Assembly: GCF_964020195.1 (NCBI RefSeq)
Contig: NZ_OZ026539.1
Coordinates: 186,001-250,000 of the forward strand
DNA length: 64,000 bases
Direction of reading: 5' to 3'
Source of the DNA: Spiroplasma endosymbiont of Lasioglossum villosulum
GTDB taxonomy: Bacteria; Bacillota_I; Bacilli_A; Mycoplasmatales; VBWQ01
Both the position numbers and the translations under genes were made by a program. The stretch's first letter is position 1. Every line of letters begins with the position of its first letter. Of this stretch, positions 50,166 to 64,000 are shown one piece after another. A model generated the notes under the pieces. The model had not been told where the DNA came from. It was given only the letters and a program-made list of their open reading frames with translations, and made no database searches.

Positions 50166-50891
50166 TTAAAGCGAAAGATCTTGATTAAATTTTTTTGCAT
50201 CATAGAACATAAAATTCATATCTTTTACATTAGAAGTATCTCAATCTGAAAGATCTTGATTAAATTTTTCGGCACCAGCAAACATACTACGCATGTCTAT
50301 TACTTTTTCTACATTTCATTTTGAAAGATCTTTATCAAATTCAAGAGCATTACAAAACATGTAACTCATATCTGTTACTTTAGAAGTATTTCATTTTGAA
50401 ATATTTCCATTAAAGTATTTTGCATAGTAAAACATGTAACTAATATTTGTTACATTAGAAGTATTTCAGTTTGAAAGATCTTGATTGAATTTTGAAGCAC
50501 CACCAAACATATTATGCATAGTTGTTACATTTGAAACATTTCATTTTGAAATATTTTGATTGAATGATTGTGTAAGAGAAAACATTGATGTCATATTTGT
50601 CACTTTTGAAGTGTCTCAGTTTGAAATGTCTTGGTTGAATTTTGAGGTACCAGAAAACATTTCTTGCAATGATGTTATTTCTGATGGTAGTTTGTCAGGT
50701 ACTTTTTCAATTATTCTTAGCATTTTAACAACTTGAATTTCTCCAATTTTATTTTCATAAAATCCAATTTGAACAATTTCAGTAGTTTTTATATCTGATA
50801 AGTCTATTTTACTAGTTGTTTGCTCTTCTCCATTACTATCAACGTAAATTGTATTTTGTAGTATTTTATATGTTTTTAATAATGTTCTCAT
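50166..50891 (-). CDS. BspA/DUF285-type repeat protein, truncated
   Basis: A 241-residue protein with an N-terminal domain of about 65 residues and then repeats of about 25 residues of the BspA-like (DUF285) type: 'FNQDISNWDTSKVTNMTSMF', 'FNQNISKWNVSNVTTMHNMF', and three or four more. Such proteins form leucine-rich-repeat-like solenoids on mollicute surfaces, but no signal peptide is seen here. The frame stops at a TAA where other repeats have Trp (TGA). In the same frame, degenerate repeat sequence continues to about 50067. ATG 50891 follows 'aaaggggggtt'. Confidence 0.85.
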
Positions 50892-51219: not shown

Positions 51220-52629
51220 TTATTGACTAAAAACACCCATACTATCATTTTTATCTCATGAACCAATTCTATTTGTAACAAGCCTTATTCCTTGATCTTC
51301 TGGTAGTCTTTTAAAAAAATTATTTATTTCTTGAAAATGATCAATAATAACTTTTATTGTTGTATAAATATCATCTTGACTTATACTACCACCCAATCCA
51401 GTATCGTCTTCTTTTGCAAATTTATTGATAATTTTAAAAAATAATTGTTTAAAATTTTCTTGTTTTTCAGTATTATAGATATTTTGGATATGTAAAAAGT
51501 TATCATAACTAATTTTTACTTTTATTCAATCATGTGCAGCAGGACGATAATCTACTTCAAATAGATTTTTATTATTAAATTTGTATAAAAATTTGTATAA
51601 AAATTTGTATAAATCATTAGCAATTTGTTCTTGAACTCATTTTGTTGGATGAAATTGATCTAAAAAAAAGTAATTATCAATATTTTGTGAGTTTGCACCA
51701 GAAACATATTGAGGTTGTAATATTCCATTTTTTCTAAGAGTATTTATATCAATTTTAGTAGCATTTGAATCTTGGTATTGACTTCCTCTATTTTTGAATT
51801 GTTCAAATAGTTTATTAAATTTTGAAAAAACATCATACTCTTTAATATTTGTTTTTTCAAAGTTTTTATTTGCTTTTTTAATTTCTTCAGTTAATTTTAA
51901 GTTAAATTTATTTACAAGATTTGTCATTGGTTGTTGATTAATAGTTTCTTTATAGTTAGGAATTAATCCCATATCAGCAATATTTGTTATAACTATTTTT
52001 TTAATATTTTTATTAATTAATTCTGTTAAATCTTCATCAAGTTTATTAATAATTTTATTAATAGCATTATCAATATCAGTAATGTTATGATCAATTATTC
52101 ACATTAAATCATTAGTTCCAATGTTTATAAAAACTAAATCATCATTATAAAAATCACTATGTTGTTTTATTAATGATTTTATTTGCTCATCAAGTGAAAA
52201 TTTATTTAAAAATAAACCTTCAAGACCATAAACTTTTTCTATAAATGTTCCACCAACAGCGTAGTTAGTACCTATTTGTGAAAAATGTTGACCATTTAAT
52301 GCTATAAAGTCTCATCCAGCTGTAACTTTTTGTTTTAATTTTTTACTAATTAATTCGGTTGCAACAGGGCCATTACATCAAGATCGATTTTGATAATAAG
52401 GAGGTTTTAATTGTACATCATGAGATTTCATAAGTTCCTCTGGGAGGGGAATATTTTGAAAAAATTGACTTCCTGCACCAACCAATGCTCCTACATCTGA
52501 TAAACTGTCTCCTAAAGTATAAAAATTATTTTGAAAATTACTTGTATTATGATTTGCATTACTTAATGTTGAGATTATGTTTGTCATTAATAAAGAACAT
52601 GTTGTCATTAGTTTTATTAAATTTTTCAT
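51220..52629 (-). CDS. Secreted GDSL lipase/esterase with extra C-terminal module
   Basis: A 469-residue secreted SGNH hydrolase. A signal peptide spans residues 1-25 ('MKNLIKLMTTCSLLMTNIIS'). Block I 'FYTLGDSLSDVGALVGAG', block II 'GTNYAVGGTF', block III 'VFINIGTNDLMW' and block V 'FFLDQFHPTKW' give the full catalytic set. After residue 340 comes a three-fold 'YKF/L' repeat from a 15-base tandem DNA repeat, then a region of about 100 residues ('HDWIKVKIS' to 'VTNRIGSWDKND') that resembles the end of the secreted protein at 19989-20762. Likely acts on host or membrane lipids. Confidence 0.9.
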
Positions 52630-52893: not shown

Positions 52894-52922
52894 TTGTTTT
52901 TTTAAATAAGTTTCTATATAAT
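52894..52922 (+). promoter_or_regulatory. rplM-rpsI promoter
   Basis: TTGTTT, 17-base spacer, perfect TATAAT; it ends 56 bases before the rplM start. Confidence 0.75.
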
Positions 52923-52929
52923 TATTAAT

Positions 52930-52977
52930 GCTTTAAGCAATGTAGTCCCGGTAAAAATTACACTGTAAGGAGAAAAA
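52930..52977 (+). promoter_or_regulatory. Candidate L13 leader
   Basis: A short leader richer in G+C ('gctttaagcaatgtagtccc', then 'ttacactgtaagg') lies between promoter and start. Position and size match the L13 leader of Firmicutes, where r-protein L13 controls its own operon. The fold was not computed. Confidence 0.45.
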
Positions 52978-52978
52978 A

Positions 52979-53419
52979 ATGCGTCAAACAACAATGAATT
53001 TCAGTAACATTGAAAAAAAGTGATATGTTATTGATGCCAGTGGTTTAATTTTAGGACGTCTTGCAACTAAAGTTGCAATGATATTGCGTGGTAAAAATAA
53101 ACCTTCATTTACACCACATTTAGATTGTGGAGATTATATCATTATTATTAATGCAAACAAAATTAAATTAACAGGTAATAAATTACAAGATAAGAAGTAT
53201 TATAACCATTCACAATATCCTGGTGGATTACGTGTACGTAATGCACAAAGTATGATTGCTAAAGATGCTTCTGAATTAGTAGAAATAGCGATTAAAGGTA
53301 TGCTACCAAATACTACCTTAGGTCGTAAGCAATTTACACATCTTCATGTTTATAACCATGATCAACATCAACATCAAGCCCAAAACCCCGAAGTTTTAAT
53401 ATTAGGCCAAGAGGAGTAG
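52979..53419 (+). CDS. rplM: 50S ribosomal protein L13
   Basis: Large-subunit protein needed early in 50S assembly, 146 residues. '[20 protein letters not shown]' and '[20 protein letters not shown]' are conserved, followed by '[17 protein letters not shown]' and '[14 protein letters not shown]'. ATG 52979 follows 'aaggagaa'. The rpsI gene starts six bases after the stop, the conserved L13-S9 operon. Confidence 0.98.
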
Positions 53420-53425
53420 ACTTTT

Positions 53426-53833
53426 ATGACAACATCTAATAAACCCGTAACTTATTCAAGTTCAGGCGGACGTAAAACGTCAACTGCCCGTGTTCATTTA
53501 AAAAATACTGGTCAATCAAAAATATTAATTAATGGTTTTGAGCCTTTAAAATATTTAGAACAAGAAATCTTAGTTCAAGATATGTTATTACCTTTAAAAG
53601 TAACTAATACGTTAGAAAACTTTGAAATTAATATCAAAGTTGAAGGTGGTGGAAGAACTGGTCAAGCTGGTGCAGCACGTTTAGCTTTATCTAATGTTTT
53701 AGTTAAGGTGTCAGAAGATTATCGAACATTATTAAGACAATTTGGATTATTAACTCGTGATGCACGTAAGAAAGAACGTAAAAAATATGGTTTAAAAGCA
53801 GCCAGAAAAGCACCACAATTTTCAAAACGTTAA
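53426..53833 (+). CDS. rpsI: 30S ribosomal protein S9
   Basis: Small-subunit protein whose C-terminal tail reaches the P-site tRNA; 135 residues. 'GGRKTSTARVHL', 'KVEGGGRTGQAGAARLALS' and the tail 'LLTRDARKKERKKYGLKAAR' into KAPQFSKR are diagnostic, including the terminal Lys-Arg. ATG 53426 follows 'gaggagta'. An intrinsic terminator lies eight bases after the stop. Confidence 0.98.
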   Translation: MTTSNKPVTYSSSGGRKTSTARVHLKNTGQSKILINGFEPLKYLEQEILVQDMLLPLKVTNTLENFEINIKVEGGGRTGQAGAARLALSNVLVKVSEDYRTLLRQFGLLTRDARKKERKKYGLKAARKAPQFSKR

Positions 53834-53840
53834 TATAATA

Positions 53841-53868
53841 AAAAAAGAGTCTCAGACTCTTTTTTTAT
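53841..53868 (+). terminator. Intrinsic terminator of rplM-rpsI
   Basis: A 12-bp stem (aaaaaagagtct / gactctttttt) with a tiny loop and a T-tract. Confidence 0.9.
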
Positions 53869-54136
53869 TATTTTTATAGTATTACTAGAATTTTATATAT
53901 TATTTTTGCTTATAATTTATTTTTTTATTTAAATAACTTTCTTTTTTTAATTTGTATTTCTTTAGATAAATTGGAGGTGTTTTTATTATAAACACTATAT
54001 ATGTGTAAAATAAGAATATCAATAATTTGTTTTAAGAATAATGTAAAATTAATTTACAAAAATTTAATAAAATTAAGGAGAGATTTTAATTTATGCCAAA
54101 AGAAATTAGAAGAAAAAGAAAAGAGTTATTGTAGGA

Positions 54137-55195
54137 ATGGTTGGTGGGACAGTTTTGGCTGGTGGATTAATCGGGGGTATTATAGCAATTTCTGAAATAT
54201 TAGTTCAAAATGAGGGGGTATATCAAGAAAAATTAAATATTTTTAATTGACCTGAATCTTATGGTGCAATATCAACTTTATTAAATATAAAAAATGATTT
54301 ATATGTCGGAACTAGTAATGGTGTATATAAAATTAAAGATAATGCAAGTAATACAAAAGATAAAATAATAACACCAATTACTGGTATTAATGGTTATATT
54401 TCTAGTTTAGTTGTTACTAATGATGGAACTGTTTATGTAGCAACTTTTGCTAATGGACTTTTTAGATATTCTCCTGAACAAAATATTTTGACACAAATAT
54501 CAGAAATAACAGGAGAAGTTTATAGTTTAGTAGTTATGGGCAATAATGTATATGTTGGAACAAGAACTTCTGATTGTTATGGTAAGTTATTTATGATTGA
54601 ATCTAATAGAAAAGTATCAGAAATTAAGGATTGAATTGAAACATATGGTGAAGTTAGAAGTTTAGCGGTTATTGATAATGATTTGTATATTGGTACTAAA
54701 ACTGGTACATATACTGGAAATTTATTAATATTTAAACCTAATGGAATATTAGAATTGTTAAAAAAATGAAATCAAAATAATGGTGAAGTTTGGAGTTTAA
54801 TAGTTTTTGGTAATAATTTATATGTTGGAAGTAGAAATCAACTATATGAAAGTAGACTATTTAAACTTTCTCTTAAAGGAGAAAAAATAACAGAAACTAT
54901 TGGTTGAAAAAATAATAAAAATTATGGTGAGATTTGAAGTTTAGCTGTTGTTAATAATGATTTATATGTTGGAAGTAGAGTTCAAGTTATTGATAATAAA
55001 TTTTTTAAAGGTGGATTATATAAGTCATCTGATGGTGGTATTACTTTTACTGAAGTATTTGGTTGAAATAAAGATTATGGTGTTGTAGTGAGTTTATTAC
55101 CTGTAGATAATAATTTATATATTGGAAGCAAAAATTATAATGATAAAACTAATCAAAATTATCAAGGGAAGTTATTTTTTAAAAGAATAAAATAA
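54137..55195 (+). CDS. Beta-propeller-like surface protein; true start probably frameshifted
   Basis: A protein of 352 residues or more with seven similar units of about 45 residues, each containing 'G-x-x-x-SL-x-V-x-x-N-x-LY-[VI]-G' (for example 'GEVYSLVVMGNNVYVGTRTS', 'GEIWSLAVVNNDLYVGSR'), which suggests a seven-bladed propeller. A hydrophobic Gly-rich segment ('MVGGTVLAGGLIGGIIAI') begins it and acts as signal or anchor. ATG 54137 has a poorly placed site. ATG 54093, with 'aaggag' upstream, gives MPKEIRRK in another frame and would join if one A were added to the A5 tract at 54113-54117, making a normal basic signal-anchor start. Confidence 0.75.
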
Positions 55196-55312
55196 AATTA
55201 TTAAAAAAATAAAAAACATTATAATGTTTATAGAATATTTAGTTAAAACAAACCTTAGCAAAATTAAGTTTCATTTTTAAAATATTAATAAGATAAAGTA
55301 TATTAATAAAAA

Positions 55313-55728
55313 TTAATGAACATAGTAATTATTAATTATTTTACAATTTTCGATTGCATCTCAAAAATTATTATTTTTTTCTCTTATTTTAAAAACAAAA
55401 ATAATTACTATGAATAGAAATACTGTATATAGTAAGATTGGAGTGATAATTATACAAAAAATAACTCCAATTTGTAATTGAATTCAAGGATAGTAATTAT
55501 CAGGAAAATGACTTAAATTACAGAAAGAACTTGCTGAAGTGCTAATACTATAACTTAAACCAAAATGTTTTAACATTGTATATCCATCTTTAAAATTTGA
55601 ATGGCATTGTTCATTATTATTGAATTTAAAATAAAAGTTACTAAATCAAATTAAGTATAGACCAGTAATTATAATTAAAACCGTGATTGCAAATAATATT
55701 AAGAAAATATTTGAATATTTTCTTAATA
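55313..55728 (-). pseudogene. Two-TM fragment, probable frameshifted continuation of 55729-55986
   Basis: From about 55742 down to TAA 55313 one frame encodes two hydrophobic segments ('IFLILFAITVLIIITGLYLI' and 'GVIFCIIITPILLYTVFLFI') around a loop with three Cys, then a polar tail ending 'IINNYYVH'. It has no ATG, GTG or TTG start of its own. Adding one A to the A4 tract at 55732-55735 fuses it to the gene upstream. It is therefore either the second half of one broken gene or uses a rare start. Confidence 0.5.
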
Positions 55729-55986
55729 TTATTTTGATTTATTAATTTGATTCAATATTCTACTTGCATCTAAATTAAATGGTATTACAATAATTTCATA
55801 GTGAATAATTTCGCGATTAGGGTATCCAAATTTTGTTACTATTTCTTTAAAACTTAGATGAAATAGTGTTGCTAATTGTAATGTTTCAAATGCTTTATAT
55901 TTTATGTCATCACTTTGATTTGTTTTATATTTTAATAAATAAATTTCTTTGAGTTTTATTTTCATTTCATTTTTATTGCCATTCAT
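55729..55986 (-). CDS. Small soluble protein, probably the N-terminal part of a split gene
   Basis: Unrecognised 85-residue protein. I chose ATG 55986 because 'gagaggt' lies six bases upstream; the frame extends further up without such a site. It is helical, charged, with 'FHLSFKEIVTKFGYPNREII' in the middle. Its last codons overlap the start-less membrane segment downstream, and a one-base change would fuse them into a protein of about 225 residues with a cytosolic head and two transmembrane segments. Confidence 0.55.
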   Translation of the reverse strand: MNGNKNEMKIKLKEIYLLKYKTNQSDDIKYKAFETLQLATLFHLSFKEIVTKFGYPNREIIHYEIIVIPFNLDASRILNQINKSK

Positions 55987-56109
55987 TTTTTTACCTCTCA
56001 AACTTATATAATTTAACAAGTAAATTATATATAAATTATATCATTTTACTTAATTAATATTTAGTATTTTTTATTAAAAAATTTTAATAAATATACAATA
56101 AAAATATGA

Positions 56110-56271
56110 TTATGAAAACGTAGGTGATTTTGCAATAATATCATCATTAATTTTTTCTATATTCTCATTCTCATTTATATCTTTTATATCATCATCATTT
56201 AGTGTTGCTTCTTTTCCTAAATTTTGATTTCATTTTTCAATTTTTAAGATATGTATTTTAATCTTTGTCAT
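56110..56271 (-). CDS. Small acidic protein, unknown
   Basis: A 53-residue gene below usual length limits. ATG 56271 is preceded by 'gagggga', and one Trp is TGA. The first 20 residues are basic and helical (TKIKIHILKIEKWNQNL), the rest acidic with repeated Asp, Asn and Glu (NDDDIKDINENENIEKIN). No function can be suggested. It lies just before the second IS30 copy. Confidence 0.5.
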
Positions 56272-56375
56272 TCTCAATCCCCTCTTAATAAAAAACCTTG
56301 TATGAATAAATTATACAAAAATTTTTTTTACTTTTAAAAATATAAATTTTTATTATAAGAATATTAAATAAAAAT

Positions 56376-57456
56376 TGCTAAATTGTAAAGGTAAGTGCAA
56401 CTAAATTATTTTTCTATCCAAATATTCGATTGGTGAAAGATAATTTAGTATTTTTCTTGGTCTTTGGTTTAAAGACAATATAAATTTATGAACTTCATTT
56501 TTATTAGTTTTTGAAAAAATAAATTTTTTAGGAAATTTTTCTCTAATTAAACCATTAGTATTTTCATTAGTACCTCTTTGTCAAGGTGAATATGGATTGG
56601 CAAAATAAATTTTTATATCTAAATTTTTTTCAAGTTGTTGTCAATTTGAAAATTCTTTGCCACGATCAAAAGTAATAGTTTTAACAATGTTTTTAGGAAG
56701 AATTGATAAATAATAACTAACATTTTTATTAATAACTTTAGTAGTTCTGTTTTTAACTAATATTGCTAAAGTAAATCGTGATACTCTTTCAACTAAAGTT
56801 ATTAAACATGATTTGCTTTTACCTCGTGATGATACTATAGTATCTCCTTCTCAATGACCAAGTGTTATACGATCATTAACATTTATATCTCGTTCTTTAA
56901 TTGATTTACCATTAAACTTGCCACGATTTTCTTTAGATTTTCGTTTTTTACCTTTTCTTCTTAAATTTTTACTAGTAACTTTATCAAGCATTCCAAAATA
57001 AATTCAAGTATAAATTGTTTTAAAACTAATAACTCACTCTTTATGAAAATTTTTAATTCTGCCATAAATTTGTTCAGGTGATCAACCTAATAGTAATTTT
57101 TGTTGTACATATTTTACTAAATTCTTATTTTTAAACTTATGAAAACTAATATGTGATTGTTTTCGATTTTCAGCTTTATTTTGTGCAATTAATGAAAAAT
57201 AATGATTATTATCTTTATTTCTATTAATTTCTCGAATAATAGTACTAATACTTCGATTAAGATTTTTAGCTATTTCACTAATTTTAAATTTAAATTTCAA
57301 TTGATTCTCAATATAAATCCTTTCATCTATGCCAAGATGTTTATAACTCATATAAAAACTCCTTACTTTTTTCTAAACTAAATTTAGCATTATGAAATTT
57401 TTATATGAGAATTTTTTGCAATTTTATTTACTTGCACTTACAAGTATAACTCAGCA
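56376..57456. mobile_element. IS30-family insertion sequence, copy 2
   Basis: 1081 bp, the same length and apparently the same sequence as 23772-24852, with the same TGCT...AGCA ends. It is flanked by the 2-bp repeat AT. It landed 27 bases upstream of the tRNA-Ile promoter without harming it. Confidence 0.93.
56401..57351 (-). CDS. IS30-family transposase (copy 2)
   Basis: A 316-residue transposase that appears identical to the product of 23797-24747, with all three catalytic acidic residues and an intact frame. Identity of the two copies implies recent transposition or gene conversion. Confidence 0.95.
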
Positions 57457-57482
57457 ATTAAATAAAATATTGTTATTATATA

Positions 57483-57511
57483 TTGCAATCGTGCTTGAAC
57501 AAATATATAAT
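57483..57511 (+). promoter_or_regulatory. tRNA-Ile promoter
   Basis: TTGCAA, 17-base spacer, perfect TATAAT, 19 bases before the tRNA 5' end. Confidence 0.85.
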
Positions 57512-57529
57512 ATCTCTGTTGCTCTTTTT

Positions 57530-57606
57530 GGGACTATAGCTCAGCTGGTTAGAGCGCACGCTTGATAAGCGTGAGGTCGATGGTTCAAGTCCATTTAGTC
57601 CCACCA
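57530..57606 (+). tRNA. tRNA-Ile (anticodon GAU), CCA encoded
   Basis: A 77-base cloverleaf: acceptor GGGACTA/TAGTCCC, D-arm GCTCAGCTGGTTAGAGC, anticodon stem CACGC/GCGTG with loop TTGATAA (anticodon GAT), T-arm ATGG-TTCAAGT-CCAT, discriminator A and genomic CCA. It stands alone with its own promoter and terminator. Confidence 0.97.
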
Positions 57607-57623
57607 TTATATGTGAAATTATG

Positions 57624-57650
57624 AAATAAACAGTTTTGTTTATTTTTTTT
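57624..57650 (+). terminator. Terminator after tRNA-Ile
   Basis: A 9-bp stem (aaataaaca / tgtttattt) is followed by a long T-run. Confidence 0.85.
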
Positions 57651-57724
57651 ATTATTTAAATCAAATTGAAATTATAATAAAGATATAAATCAATTGATTT
57701 ATTAAGAATATAAAAAGTTATATT

Positions 57725-57772
57725 AAAAACCTATCATTAATCAGATATTTTAATTAGTGATAGGTTTTTAGT
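57725..57772. terminator. Second hairpin terminator, downstream of the tRNA
   Basis: Long arms (aaaaacctatca / tgataggttttt, extended with one mismatch) and T-run. It has no gene directly upstream, so it may close read-through from the tRNA, an unseen small RNA, or minus-strand transcripts. Confidence 0.7.
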
Positions 57773-57908
57773 AATTGTTATTCTTTTTTAGTATTTTTTA
57801 TATTATTAATTTTTTTATTTTTGAATTATAAATTAATATATAATATATCAGTATTAAGTATATTAATCATATAGTAATTATTATATTTAAGTAGTTAGGA
57901 GAATGAGT

Positions 57909-58997
57909 ATGAAAAAACAAGAAATATTAAAACCAGTTATTAATAGTTCTTTAGTTGAAGATGATGTTAATGCTAAATCAAAAGAAAAACATAAATTTCT
58001 AAATTTTATTAAATCATATTTTAAAAACTGACGTAATCATTATAACCGTAATGTAATAGTTAATCCTGAAGATGCTCAATATGCAATTTTAATTCGTGAT
58101 TTTACTAAACAGTTTAAAAAAATTAAAGCTGTTGATAATGCTATTATTAAAGTTAAAAAAGGTACTATTCATGGTTTTATTGGTCCAAATGGATCAGGCA
58201 AAACCACTACTATTAAATGTTTAATTAGCGCTATGGTTGAAACACACGGTGATTTAATTATTCATGGTAAGCGTTCATGAACAGTTGAAGCAAAAAAACA
58301 AGTTGGTTATATTCCAGAAGCTGCAAGATTTCCTAAACGAATTACTACTTATGATTATTTAATTTCAATGGGACAAATTAGCGGTTTGAAATATAAAGTT
58401 GCTAAGGAAAAGACAGAAATGATTTTAAAGGAATTAGATTTATGAAAGTTTAAAAAACGTAATCCTAATGCTTATTCTTCGGGTATGAAGAAAAAGGTGT
58501 TATTAGCACAATCACTATTAAATAATCCAGATGTCTTAATTTTAGATGAACCAGCCGCTAATCTTGATCCAACAGCGAGAACAGAATTGTTTAATGATTT
58601 AAGAAAACTTCGTGAGCAAGGTAAAACTGTTTTTATTTCATCACATATTTTATCTGAATTACAAAATTTAGCTGATGAAGTTACTGTTTTAAATTATAGT
58701 AAAGTTGTTTATACAGGATTGGTTAATAAAACTGATTCATTATATGAAATAAGTTCTAATAATGATAATAATAAATTAATGAAGTTATTAATAGATAAAA
58801 AATTTTTAGTAGATGTTAATGAAAATCGTTTATTGGTAAATATTAAAACTGAGGCACAAGTTGCAGCAGTATTAGCAATTGCTTTAAATGCTAATATTAT
58901 CATTACTTATTTAAAACCATATACTGTTGATTTACAAACAATGTATGAACGAATTGTTATGGAAGCCAATGATAAAAATAAGAAGGGAGAAAAATAA
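57909..58997 (+). CDS. ABC transporter ATP-binding protein
   Basis: A 362-residue ATPase subunit of an ABC-2/ CcmA-like exporter. After a 65-residue N-terminal extension come Walker A 'GFIGPNGSGKTTTIKCLI', the Q-loop region 'QVGYIPEAARFPK', the signature 'AYSSGMKKKVLLAQSLL' (S-S-G-M form), Walker B 'VLILDEPAANLDP' and the H-loop 'FISSHILSEL'. I chose ATG 57909 because 'aggag' is seven bases upstream; ATG 57903 is too close. Its stop overlaps the ATG of the permease gene. Confidence 0.95.
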
Positions 58998-60409
58998 TGC
59001 CAATATTTCGTTATACTTTTAAAAAGATGATTGCTACTCCTTCAACTTGAATTATTTTTATTATAACTTTAATTTTTCTTGCTTTATCTTGGTCTTTAAT
59101 TTCGTTATTTGTGGGTTCTGAAGCAATAAAACAATTAACTTATGATCAAGCATTAAATTTTTATGTACCACAATGAAAAGTATTATCATTCTCGGTACTT
59201 TTATCAATTATGATTTTTGTATTTATTTCAGTTAAAGCAACACAAGTTTTTCGTGATGAAATTGATGATGGTACTTTATTGATTTTAGTATCAAAACCAG
59301 TTAGTAGAACTAAAATTTGGACTGAAAAGTTATTATCTTTACAAGTGGTAATTATTTTATATTTATTTTTATCTATTTTTATTGCTAGTTTTGTCATTAC
59401 TATTCCTGGCATTGGTAGTTCAACTATTTATAGTGCGGTATTTCCTTATTTATGAATTTTATTTGGTGTTGCTATTATTTTTGATTTAATTATTTCTTCA
59501 ATTGCTATTTTATTTTCATTAATTTTAAATGCTAAGGCTTTAGTTGCAATTATGATTGGAATGGCTGCTTTATTCAATATTTTTGCGACATTAATTAATG
59601 GTTTAGTAACATTTGATCCTACATATTATGTTGTTTCACAGTCATTAGCAGTTTATAATAATGTAAAAGCTAAATTAGATAAAACTGATATTGATTGAAT
59701 TAATGATGTATATAGAAAACACCCAACAACTACTATTGAATCTATTCAAAAGGCTATGTTTAGTATTTACGATACATATATTAAAGAAGTTAAGTATCCA
59801 AATAATTATGATTATCAAAAAGAACAAACAATAGTATTAGCAATTAAGAATGGTAGTACTATTACTCCACCAACTACTGATGCTCCTAAAGACTTAGTTA
59901 CTCATATTTACAATATTAGTAATGCTTTTCGTCAATGAAAAGAACAAAGTTTTGAAGAATTAATGACAGGTAAAAAAGTTGGACTTGATAACCTTGATCT
60001 CAAAAGATCAAATGGTGTTGGTAGCAATGATGTTGATTATTCAGTAAATCTTATGATTACGAATTTAAATACATCTCTTTCTCAATCACAATATGATGCT
60101 CTTAATACTAAGACATCACAAGTTAAAGCAATGCGTTATTTAAATATTTTTTATCAATTAAAATATATTTGAGATGGAATATCGACTAAACAAGGTTCAA
60201 TCTTTTCTTATCCAGGGGAGTATGCTATGACAGCAGATCCTTATTTAGTTAGTTTTAATAAAGTTAACACAAATTATCAAGTTGATACCAATAAAGCAAC
60301 TAATAGTAAAATTCTTAATTTTCCAGTTTTATTGACTGTCTATGTTTTGATTGGTATTGGTTTATTTTGTTCTTCATGATTAGTATTTAATCGTAGAGAT
60401 TTTACTTAG
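58997..60409 (+). CDS. ABC-2 type permease
   Basis: A 470-residue membrane partner of the preceding ATPase, whose stop it overlaps by one base. It has six transmembrane segments: one at the N-terminus, four at about residues 70-210, and one at the end ('LLTVYVLIGIGLFCSSWLV'). 'RDEIDDGTLLILVSKPVSRT' is the typical coupling helix of ABC-2 permeases. A large extracellular loop of about 230 residues between the fifth and sixth segments may bind the cargo. Substrate unknown. Ends at a strong terminator. Confidence 0.9.
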
Positions 60410-60427
60410 TAGTTTAGTATCTTTTAT

Positions 60428-60458
60428 AAAAAATCAACATCAAAGATGTTGATTTTTT
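60428..60458 (+). terminator. Terminator of the ABC operon
   Basis: A 14-bp stem (aaaaaatcaacatc / gatgttgatttttt) with an aaa loop; the T-tract is part of the right arm. Confidence 0.9.
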
Positions 60459-60542
60459 ATATATTAAATTTCAAACCTCATTATTTAAATGATGTAAAAT
60501 TATTATTATAATATAGAGCAAATTAATGATAAGGGTGAAATT

Positions 60543-62366
60543 ATGAAAATTAGTGGATTTAAAATTAATAATAGAGCAAATCCACATAAAATTAGTAATT
60601 TTTTTGCTACTAAAAAATGATATTTATTAGCATTAATGATTATTATTCCAGCAGTATTGCAACAAATATTATCAGCATCAATGAATTTACTAGATAATAT
60701 TATGGTTGGAGAATTAAAGGATAGTTTTATTAGTGATTTAAAGCCAATGAATAATCATATTAGGGATATTTTTAATTCATTAGGACTTTGAGATAATTGA
60801 AGTTGATGAAAAGATAATGGTTTAGAACATTTTTATCATTTGCAATATTCAGCAGGACAAATTGCTGTTTCGGGAGTTACTGCTTCTAATCAAATTTTTG
60901 TTATTATTTATGCCGTTATGGGAGGTTTTATCAACGGTGTTAGTATTTTTGGTGCTCAATTTTATGGAGCTGGAAGATATGGTTCTTTAAGACAAACAGT
61001 AAGAATGAGAATTATTTTTGGATTTTTAATTGGAGTAATAGTTATTATTTTATCTTATACAGTAGGCGAATATTTAATTTCTTATACTACTAGTCCTAGT
61101 AGTGCATTGGATAAATTTAATCAATTATGTGCTGCTAAAGGATTAACTCTTAATGATATTAATGAGTTAAAGGACATTTTAAATTTTAATCATCCTTTTA
61201 GTGAAAATTCACTTATTGATTTTATGAATATTCATAATATTGATAAAAATGATCCCCAATTTGTACAAATTATTTTACGTTATTATGAATTTCATTCAGC
61301 ATCTTTAGCAACAGCACAAGGTATTGATTATAATCAATGAATTGTTTTTTCTTATCCATTATTAGGAATAAACTTTGCTTTTGTTTCAGTATTTCGCGAA
61401 ACAAAACGTGGTTATATTCCATTAATATTAACTTTTGTTTCAGTATTTATTAACTTTTTATTAAATTTATTATTAATTAATGGTATTGGTGCAGTTACAG
61501 GAATTGGAGCACGAGGTTCAGCAGTTGCTACTTTAACAGCGAGAATTGCTCAGTTGGCATTAATTAGTGGTTTTATTATATGAAAGAAATATGAATTTCA
61601 ACCAAAAGTTTTGAAAATGTTTAAGATTAGGGGTGATTTATTTAAAAAAATTATAATTAAAACATGGCCATTAATGTTAAATGATTTATTATTTGCAGTT
61701 GCTACGACAATGATTATTAGATTAATTTCGCAATGAAGCTTTGAAGCATTAAGTGGTTCGGCAATTGCTTCCACGATTAATACCATGTTCTATACTTTAT
61801 ATATTGGATTTGGTATTGCTTCTTCGGTGTTAATTGCCAATCGTTTAGGTGCCGATGATTTGATTGGTGCTAAATATAATGCTAAACATTTAATTAGGTT
61901 AGGCTTTTTTGTATCATTATTTTTTGCTGGCTTATTAGTTTTATCTTCATTTTTTTTACCACAATTATTATTTAATGCAACAACAGAAGCCTTACGAATT
62001 TCTAGTTGAATGATGCGTGTTGATGCTATAGTTTTTAGTGCTTATACTATTTTGTATACTTGTATTTATGCATTTCGTGCTGGTGGCTTAGCAATTACTG
62101 TTTTACTTGTTGATAGTTGTTTTACTTGGTGTTTTTCAATATTAATTTTATTTATTGAGGTACAGTATAGTCCTTTAGATATTGTTTATATTTATGCTAT
62201 TATGCGTTCTTGTGATGTTCTTAAGATGATTATTGCTTTATTTATTTATCATCGTGGTAAATGAGTAAGAAATTTAGCAAGTAGTATGAATAAAGTATAT
62301 CCAGAATCTCCACCAGTAATTGATATACCAAAAGCAAAAGATAAAGTTGATATTGCTAATTTTTAA
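60543..62366 (+). CDS. MATE-family efflux transporter with large loops
   Basis: Multidrug and toxin extrusion exporter, 607 residues against the usual 450. ATG 60543 follows 'aagggtga'. MATE features include 'IIPAVLQQILSASMNLLDNI' and 'MVGEL' in the first segment, 'GFINGVSIFGAQFYGAG' and, in the second half, 'FYTLYIGFGIASSVLIANRL'. The extra length lies in two polar insertions, one after TM1 (about 50 residues, Trp-rich) and one after TM4 (about 95 residues). It probably exports small organic cations or toxins by Na+ or H+ exchange. Confidence 0.92.
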
Positions 62367-62391
62367 AGATTGAAAATTTCTTTAATATATA

Positions 62392-62427
62392 ATTTAAATA
62401 AACGCCATAAAAGGCGTTTATTTAAAT
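62392..62427. terminator. Terminator after the MATE gene
   Basis: A 15-bp perfect stem (atttaaataaacgcc / ggcgtttatttaaat) with a 6-base loop, between convergent genes. Confidence 0.88.
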
Positions 62428-62438
62428 ATGTTTAATTT

Positions 62439-62747
62439 TTAAAATTTTACTATTCTTGAATTACTTGGCTTTATTCTTTGCTTATAATTTTTTGTTGGAA
62501 TATCATTTTCATATTTACGTAGTGTTTGTTCTCAAGGGATGTTCTTTTCTTTTTGTTTATTAATGGGGTTAGATATTTGTAGTTTTGGTTGCATTTTTAG
62601 AGGTACTGAAATATCTGAATTTAAAGAATCTGTTGATGTGGATTTTGAATTAAAACCTTCATCACTACTGTTAGATAATAATTGATTTTCCAAATCACAA
62701 ATTTTTTCATTAAGTTGAAATATTTCTGATTCAAATTGTTCAACCAT
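62439..62747 (-). CDS. Hypothetical protein, possibly a 5'-truncated remnant
   Basis: A 102-residue polar protein: a short coiled coil ('EQFESEIFQLNEKICDLENQ'), a Ser/Thr/Asp-rich linker and a basic tail ending 'SNSRIVKF'. The frame is open above the ATG for about 18 more codons ('LWQPPQQEKETIVEVNEQ') back to a TAA at 62802-62804. An ATG with a better position upstream (62833 region) is in another frame. The piece may thus be the C-terminal end of a larger gene that has lost its start. Confidence 0.5.
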
Positions 62748-62964
62748 TTGTTCATTGACTTCGACAATTGTTTCTTTTTCTTGCTGGGGCGGTTGTCAAA
62801 GTTACGAAATAATTAATTATCATATTAGTAACTTATTTCCAAAATTACCATTTAAAAATGATGATAGACAAATTAAATTCTCTTTTACCCTTAAATTTAA
62901 ATTTATATTCGACGTATTTTAAAAAATATACATTTAAAAGATAAAATAAAAATTATTAACAAGG

Positions 62965-62995
62965 AAAAAGACAAGAAATAATCTTGTCTTTTTTT
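62965..62995 (+). terminator. Hairpin terminator
   Basis: A 12-bp stem (aaaaagacaaga / tcttgtcttttt) is followed by T. No plus-strand gene ends just before it; 62805-62964 holds no gene that I can see. Confidence 0.8.
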
Positions 62996-63035
62996 GTAAT
63001 TGTAAAATTTTAAAATTTTTATTATTAACATCCTT

Positions 63036-63370
63036 TAAATATCTACTACACGCAGTGACCAAGTAGGAGAAGTTAATAATTAATAACCGTCTTTAACGCT
63101 ATTATCAACACGTGTTAGGGAACTAAAAAAGTGAACTACAACACAGTTGTTAAAAATAGTAGCTAGTATGTGGACTTGCATGGATAAATAAAAAGTGGAG
63201 TGATACCTAATAAAATATACTAACCATTAATGGTAATTCTTGGGGTGGGAGCGAATTGGAAACTAGTATATATAGACCTGTTGTAGGGACCTATTGTATT
63301 AATTCTATTCTTTATTTAACCAACCTTGCCACTCCCCAGTGAGCAAGTGTTGGTTTTATTTTTTATTTTT
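63036..63370 (+). ncRNA. Structured RNA candidate, possibly a T-box-like leader
   Basis: About 330 bases without ORFs, with clearly higher G+C (about one third) than its surroundings. It ends in a multi-part hairpin (AACCAAC-CTTGC-CACT / AGTG-GCAAG-GTTGGTT) and T-tract. 'GGGGTGGGAGCGAA' at 63242-63255 resembles the T-box sequence, and its GGGG and GC-AA can pair with CCCC and TTGC inside the terminator's left arm, giving a competing antiterminator. 'CCAAGTAGGAGAAG' near the 5' end resembles the base of T-box stem I. The match to the T-box consensus is imperfect. It contains no RNase P, tmRNA or SRP core motifs that I can find. Confidence 0.45.
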
Positions 63371-63507
63371 TTAAAATTTCATAATTTATTTTTGAGCCCA
63401 GTTTTCATGGAATGAATAAAACGAATAGTAGTATTATTAATAATCTAAAAATCAAAATATATGTTCTTTATGCTAGAAGCAACAGAACATATTAGGAAAG
63501 GATTATT

Positions 63508-64000
63508 ATGCAAATATAATTTAAAAAAGAACAAATTGTTAAAGATAGACCACAATCTATTCTTATTGATTATGGTGAATATAAATTACAATGTCCAAAA
63601 TGAATGGTTAAAAATAATAGTTTTATTGCTGATGATAAATATACATATTGAGTTTTTAATTTAGAAAATATTAAAAGAGAATTAAGTGGTAATGAATTAA
63701 TAAAATTATTAGAACCATATATTAAAGACCAAAAAATAACTGTTAATAAACCAACTGCTCCAAAAGAATATTATCTTAATGATATAAAACTTGAACCATT
63801 AAAATTTTATGAACAGCATAATAGTTGATTTATCGGTGAAATAACAGATAACAAAACTAAAATTACTAATCCTTGTTTTAAATATAACATTACGTGAGAA
63901 GAAAACAGAAAAGGTTTTAAAATAAATAATCCATATAAACATGATGATTTACCAATTAATTATATAGTTACTTCTTATAAGGAAATTTCAAATCATAATG
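63508..64000 (+). pseudogene. Unknown gene with TAA at codon 4, running off the window
   Basis: ATG 63508 has 'aggaaagga' upstream, but codon 4 is TAA (63517-63519). The same frame is then open for 160 codons, with Trp as TGA, to the end of the window. The protein reads 'FKKEQIVKDRPQSILIDYGE', 'LQCPKWMVKNNSFIADD', then Lys/Asn/Tyr-rich sequence with no signal peptide and no recognised family. It resembles mollicute plasmid or viral proteins in composition only. Either the gene is broken, or translation starts after the TAA at a non-standard codon. Confidence 0.6.

Follow-up and report, generated by a model that had tools for sequence, protein, structure and literature searches.

A frame-broken leader ahead of a predicted seven-bladed propeller gene, probably a young pseudogene, in a Spiroplasma genome

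Introduction

Among the closest described systems to the locus reported here is Vaa, a surface protein of Mycoplasma hominis whose gene is turned on or off by the length of a single poly-A tract: 8 A is on, and 7 or 9 A is off (PMC524362). Like vaa, the gene studied here probably encodes a mollicute surface protein and has a 5'-proximal frame break in A-rich DNA, but the run at its break is A5-G-A4, and we found no evidence of two states. A second comparison is offered by the Reg_prop sensor BT4673 of Bacteroides, which takes Foldseek ranks 6 and 7 for the propeller model described below; BT4673 is a sensor, whereas the reading frame studied here is without a signalling domain. The propeller proteins of lipoprotein type found in Spiroplasma and other mollicutes (G000:36078, G000:1452791, and G022:1172893) have similar repeat units (33, 37, and 41% identical where they align with ours) and share with our gene an export signal ahead of the propeller. 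Their signal peptides contain a cysteine (by eye), whereas the leader of our gene is cysteine-less and its frame is broken. The G022 protein passes the NCBIfam lipoprotein model (33 vs 24 bits); G000:36078 does not (16.7 bits). Since there are papers that mention both Spiroplasma and beta-propellers, we make no claim that such propellers are unreported.

Gene decay is documented in the genus: PMC13375240 gives 286 pseudogenes, a moderate load, for the Spiroplasma symbiont of Mallada, and PMC8208695 likewise concerns pseudogenes in Spiroplasma. Here we argue that a gene in the window (the whole 64,000-nt stretch that was analysed, to which all coordinates without a genome prefix refer) is probably a recently inactivated copy, that is, a young pseudogene, of a gene for an exported seven-bladed propeller. 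The genome that carries it, G000, consists of one contig of 1.51 Mb and probably belongs to the ixodetis group, in which PMC8025503 places the Spiroplasma endosymbiont of Danaus chrysippus. The latter is referred to below as G003, and G039 is a genome of the same species as G000.

The propeller body

The window was read under code 4 (TGA=W), under which long frames are open that table 11 interrupts. Positions 54137-55195 of the plus strand encode 352 residues with seven GxxxSLxxxxNxLYVG-like units, all in one frame and starting at 54263, 54392, 54512, 54647, 54782, 54926, and 55079. Six of the seven were returned by the pattern search; the first, GAISTLLNIKNDLYVG, has no SL pair and was taken from the translation. 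The propeller frame is open over 54110-55192, the remaining two plus-strand frames of 54137-55195 contain 24 and 47 stops, and none of 2000 single-base shuffles of that interval was free of stops.

The product is supported as a seven-bladed beta-propeller, whose blades would close into a ring. AlphaFold2, run on the single sequence, returned a propeller-type model (pTM 0.78, mean pLDDT 74) with 28 strands of at least 3 residues; residues 1-30 fall below 50 in this model, and the others of the five models have mean pLDDT values of 50-71. A Foldseek search of the PDB with the model gave 1315 matches at E <= 0.001, and the best 50 of these, among which the highest TM-score by query length is 0.68, are what we take to be propeller proteins, including WD40, kelch, and designed propellers as well as BT4673. 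At the sequence level, Pfam Reg_prop (PF07494) exceeds its cut-off in one stretch, residues 84-104 (21.1 vs 20.4 bits), six further Pfam matches all lie below theirs, no NCBIfam model reached its cut-off on this protein, and a search of solved structures gave a single match at E <= 1 (CFAP52, 2.7e-5). A preliminary description, made from the letters of the window, had proposed a closed propeller of seven units and named structure prediction as a check; the seven in-frame units, the 28 predicted strands, and the propeller matches in Foldseek bear out a seven-bladed propeller.

The propeller probably lies outside the cell, because several paralogues, in this genome and in others, bear what look by eye like lipoprotein-type signals before similar units. 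From its fold, it may also have had a role in binding the host.

A leader split between two frames

The gene lies downstream of two genes that we take, from their sequences, to be rplM and rpsI. A terminator-like hairpin stands between rpsI and the gene (Table 1), so that the gene probably has a promoter of its own; a promoter scan gave no more than the shuffles did (16 found vs 15.2 expected).

Table 1. Positions of features at the window gene, and of leader sites elsewhere in the genome that carries it.
Feature	Position	Strand	Remarks
Terminator-like hairpin between rpsI and the window gene	53835..53871	+	1 found in 53820-55320 vs 0.0 expected from shuffles
Ribosome-binding site AAGGAG	54075..54080	+	12 bases before ATG 54093
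Leader start part, frame 0: MPKEIRRKRKELL, then TAG 54132-54134	54093..54134	+	by eye, similar to MAKEVKKGK in the paralogue
Purine run A5-G-A4 in the Lys/Arg stretch	54113..54122	+	within the 54110-54131 overlap of both open frames
Hydrophobic segment VIVGMVGGTVLAGGLIGGIIAIS, propeller frame (-1 to ATG 54093)	54125..54193	+	matches the leader profile
First ATG of the propeller frame	54137..54139	+	2 bases after the frame-0 TAG; without a well-placed ribosome-binding site
Predicted seven-bladed beta-propeller, seven units	54263..55192	+	from unit calls, AlphaFold2, and Foldseek
Leader sites in G000	347589, 542311, 728408, 1233135, 1242620, window 54093		Lys-rich start, hydrophobic segment, mostly an acidic stretch too
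Gene D	G000:728345-728557		copies L065, L067, L130

Translation from ATG 54093 begins MPKEIRRK and ends at a TAG after 13 codons. The only ribosome-binding-site-like letters at ATG 54137 are AGGA, directly abutting it, and the N-terminus that would start there is hydrophobic (hydropathy 2.07 over 19 residues), with no basic residues ahead. The paralogue at G000:542311 runs from its MAKEV start through the hydrophobic segment without a change of frame (MAKEVKKGKIITAIVGGTTLVGGATAG), and its spacing from AAGGAG to ATG is identical (by eye). Because the paralogue leader is continuous, the break in the window gene falls within a formerly uninterrupted leader. The hydrophobic segment of the window gene matches the paralogue leader alone at E 0.0024 and the leader profile A1, of which the window row is itself part, at E 8.1e-15. 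Two further points of the preliminary description therefore stand: the better start, with its ribosome-binding site and basic residues, is one base out of frame, as the AAGGAG, the TAG, and the -1 frame attest, and the segment in the other frame is a signal-type leader, export being supported by homology to the paralogue and to the profile. The paralogue is also broken, its propeller lying in another frame behind the leader. At G000:542311-544910 (L012, L063) there is a tandem pair of propeller genes, the first with its leader in the other frame and the second open.

We suggest that the Lys/Arg-rich start, the hydrophobic segment, and the propeller once formed one continuous frame, and that the product, either anchored in the single membrane or secreted through it, would have had its propeller outside, in the manner of the lipoprotein-type Spiroplasma propellers, and most likely bound something of the host there. 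A net one-base frame change in the Lys/Arg codons would then have made translation from the real start end after 13 codons. The propeller would now be severed from its leader, with at most a low-level product, made by re-initiation at ATG 54137 and lacking the basic residues. Judged from its sequence, the gene has presumably lost its function.

The propeller frame is fully open over its 352 codons, which counts against a pseudogene: either the frame was broken recently or translation of the protein continues. A tolerated break, in which the propeller is made through re-initiation at ATG 54137 or through a -1 slip of the ribosome at AAAAG, would fit the intact body and the distance of 2 bases between the TAG and that ATG, and PMC5009743 describes how slippage on long poly-A tracts corrects frames in insect endosymbionts. 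We nonetheless consider it improbable, as the 22-base overlap of the two frames contains no X XXY YYZ heptamer (by eye), two downstream stretches examined for pseudoknot-free folds give no clear sign of a stimulatory structure (z -1.71, equalled or bettered by 14 of 200 shuffles, and z -0.02), and the arrangement is preserved in no conserved copy among the relatives examined. Tracts of A4 and A5 are, moreover, short for transcript slippage.

The locus in related genomes

In the Danaus chrysippus symbiont, the DNA upstream of the gene is conserved to 53989 and is followed by a transposase gene that we take to be IS3-like and then by the last 63 codons of the propeller gene, about 1 kb having been lost. 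The 63 codons in common show 4 nonsynonymous and 2 synonymous differences, one of the nonsynonymous ones at the junction, too few to speak for or against selection. In G039, rplM-rpsI is intact and 99.6% identical, and the match ends at 53934, giving way to a transposase, presumably IS30-like, and other sequence. The G039 stretch behind rpsI has no further match to window 52900-64000 save the same IS30-like element, and no close copy of the gene was found elsewhere in G039 (best protein E 1.1e-6, all 9 candidates being scored; of 676 candidates in the DNA search, 40 were scored). In three other species (G001, G002, and G004), the gene is matched nowhere in the stretches of 6.6 to 8.2 kb taken behind rpsI, and a search of 9 family genomes, G000 included, found no second full copy. 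Absent or truncated in these relatives, the gene is dispensable there.

Wider searches returned no relative from the protein scan of genome contigs, from viral contigs, or from plasmid and phage records (the latter two by protein searches); a DNA pattern taken from the 3' end of the gene matched one record, the Danaus chrysippus symbiont. Two marks of a pseudogene, a start and body in separate frames and loss in relatives, are found here.

Pfam identifies integrase cores in the transposases and, in the window element, HTH_38 too. The window copy, an open IS30-like transposase gene, lies at 56401-57351 (minus strand), and in G039, where 40 of 676 candidates were scored, at least 41 relatives of nearly full length are 92-95% identical to it. 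The gene next after the propeller gene, at about 55313-55750 (minus strand), encodes a small membrane protein; comparison with the G003 copy shows that its 5' end has been lost.

A family of leaders, most of them broken

The leader family is defined here as a Lys/Arg-rich start with a hydrophobic segment like KIIxxIxGxxxLxGGATAG, and profile A1 was made from eight such leaders. In 8 genomes searched, the profile found 11 sites at E <= 1.4e-11 (six in G000, three in G001, and two in G003), eight of them rows of A1 itself, with the next match at E 0.127. The same-species genome G039 added three sites at E <= 1.4e-16, for a total of 14 in four genomes. The bodies behind the leaders vary, comprising propellers, DUF285 repeats, and three more types for which Pfam gives nothing at E <= 0.01.

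By our own reading of the frames, 13 of the 14 leader genes are broken. Eight contain nonsense codons or have a body that is lost or disrupted: gene C in G000 and G003, gene D in G001 and G003, gene E in G000, G001, and G039, and gene F in G001. In the other five, the lesions are confined to frame shifts (the window gene, G000:542311, gene C in G039, and gene D in G000 and G039), and the one member not judged broken is gene F of G000 (G000:1242620), open over 608 codons. Start and hydrophobic segment are in different frames in three genes, namely the window gene and gene C of G003 and of G039. The shift lies within or behind the leader in G000:542311, in genes C and D of G000, in gene D of G001 and G039, and in gene E of G001; gene C of G039 has a second shift so placed.

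Tract lengths differ between genomes in two genes. Gene C has A6 then A8 in G000, A5 then A8 in G039, and A7 then A9 in G003, where the A7 arose by a G-to-A substitution; the G000 copy begins in frame, but one base is missing from its hydrophobic segment and its body is interrupted by a TAG. In gene D, an A8 puts the leader out of frame with the body in G000, G039, and G001, and with the A9 of G003 the two are in frame. Its body of 108 codons is open in G000 and G039 and has a TAA in G001 and G003. Because the gene D shift is common to both genomes of the species and the body is open, it is not brand new.

For a pseudogene, then, speak the break in a homologous leader, the loss or truncation of the locus in relatives, the 13 broken leader genes, and the 5' loss in the neighbouring gene. 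Counted against it are the lesions that consist of shifts only (5 of 13), the open bodies of gene D, and the variation of leader tracts (5/30 vs 6/143).

Tract-length variation and the case for a switch

Tracts of A or T in G000 were aligned with those of relatives, tracts with substitutions or altered neighbours being excluded. Length differences were seen in 4/200 comparisons for tracts of 5, 1/85 for 6, 4/51 for 7, 2/12 for 8, and 0/1 for 9. By place, the leaders of genes C to F differed in 5/30, non-ORF DNA in 6/143, and other ORFs in 0/176 comparisons. The contrast between leaders and non-ORF DNA gives a Fisher p = 0.024 on comparisons that are not independent. The excess is weak, because the 5/30 counts one gene D event twice, the leader class was picked after viewing, some of the non-ORF DNA belongs to broken genes, and most leader genes are broken; the ORF control is weak because its ORFs were selected as open in G000. 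The leader figure covers genes C to F, the window's own tract being kept in no relative examined.

A reversible phase switch, in which slippage in the A-rich run of the leader alternately joins the anchor to the reading frame and uncouples it, would have its precedent in the A-tract of vaa (PMC524362) and would account for gene C having a different tract state in each of three genomes, of which two belong to the same species, for leader tracts varying more often than non-ORF tracts, and for open bodies behind shifted leaders in gene D of G000 and G039. Against it, the tract at the window break is just A5-G-A4, shorter than other runs of the same gene (one A7 at 54760-54766, in the body and the longest, and three A6), and tracts of 5 are those that vary in only 4/200 comparisons. 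Two G5 runs, at 54173 and 54214, are inside the propeller frame, downstream of the break. The in-frame copies of genes C and D are themselves damaged, by the one-base loss and TAG in gene C of G000 and the TAA in gene D of G003. A phase-variable protein should have a long homopolymer or simple repeat at its break and an intact coding sequence in relatives; here the run is short, and behind rpsI in five other genomes the gene is absent in four (G001, G002, G004, and G039) and truncated in G003. With the short tract, the losses in relatives, and the nonsense and body-loss lesions of sibling genes, the earlier proposal that a switchable signal sequence governs surface display finds no support, and we regard such a switch as unlikely.

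A related reading is that the A-rich Lys codons of a shared cassette act as a common contingency switch with which ixodetis-type Spiroplasma turn surface display on and off, a switch that would now be decaying; the window gene would have been caught in the off state while the family, with its propellers, DUF285 repeats, and other bodies, is being lost. We give this reading little credence.

A one-base sequencing or assembly error, conceivable in A-rich DNA, appears very improbable in view of the intact rplM-rpsI stretch and its near identity to that of G039, the gene D A8 shift in the separate assemblies G001 and G039, and the unvarying tracts of other ORFs, the last a weak control for the reason given above.

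If the window gene is only a pseudogene, as we think probable, it records how this Spiroplasma group lost a surface propeller and, with it, a set of leader-tagged proteins, and it cautions that a start in a different frame does not by itself make a switch. Were the leader tracts to switch, a heritable insect symbiont would have a phase-variable surface; among titles on Spiroplasma, phase variation, and the surface, which form part of the matching literature, we found no such claim.

Two other genes of the window, both on the minus strand, deserve mention. A DUF285 repeat protein (233 bits) is encoded at 50166-50891; it resembles leader gene C in its N-terminal part, but without that leader. 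A GDSL-like lipase is encoded at 51220-52629 and has, by eye, a signal-like N-terminus.
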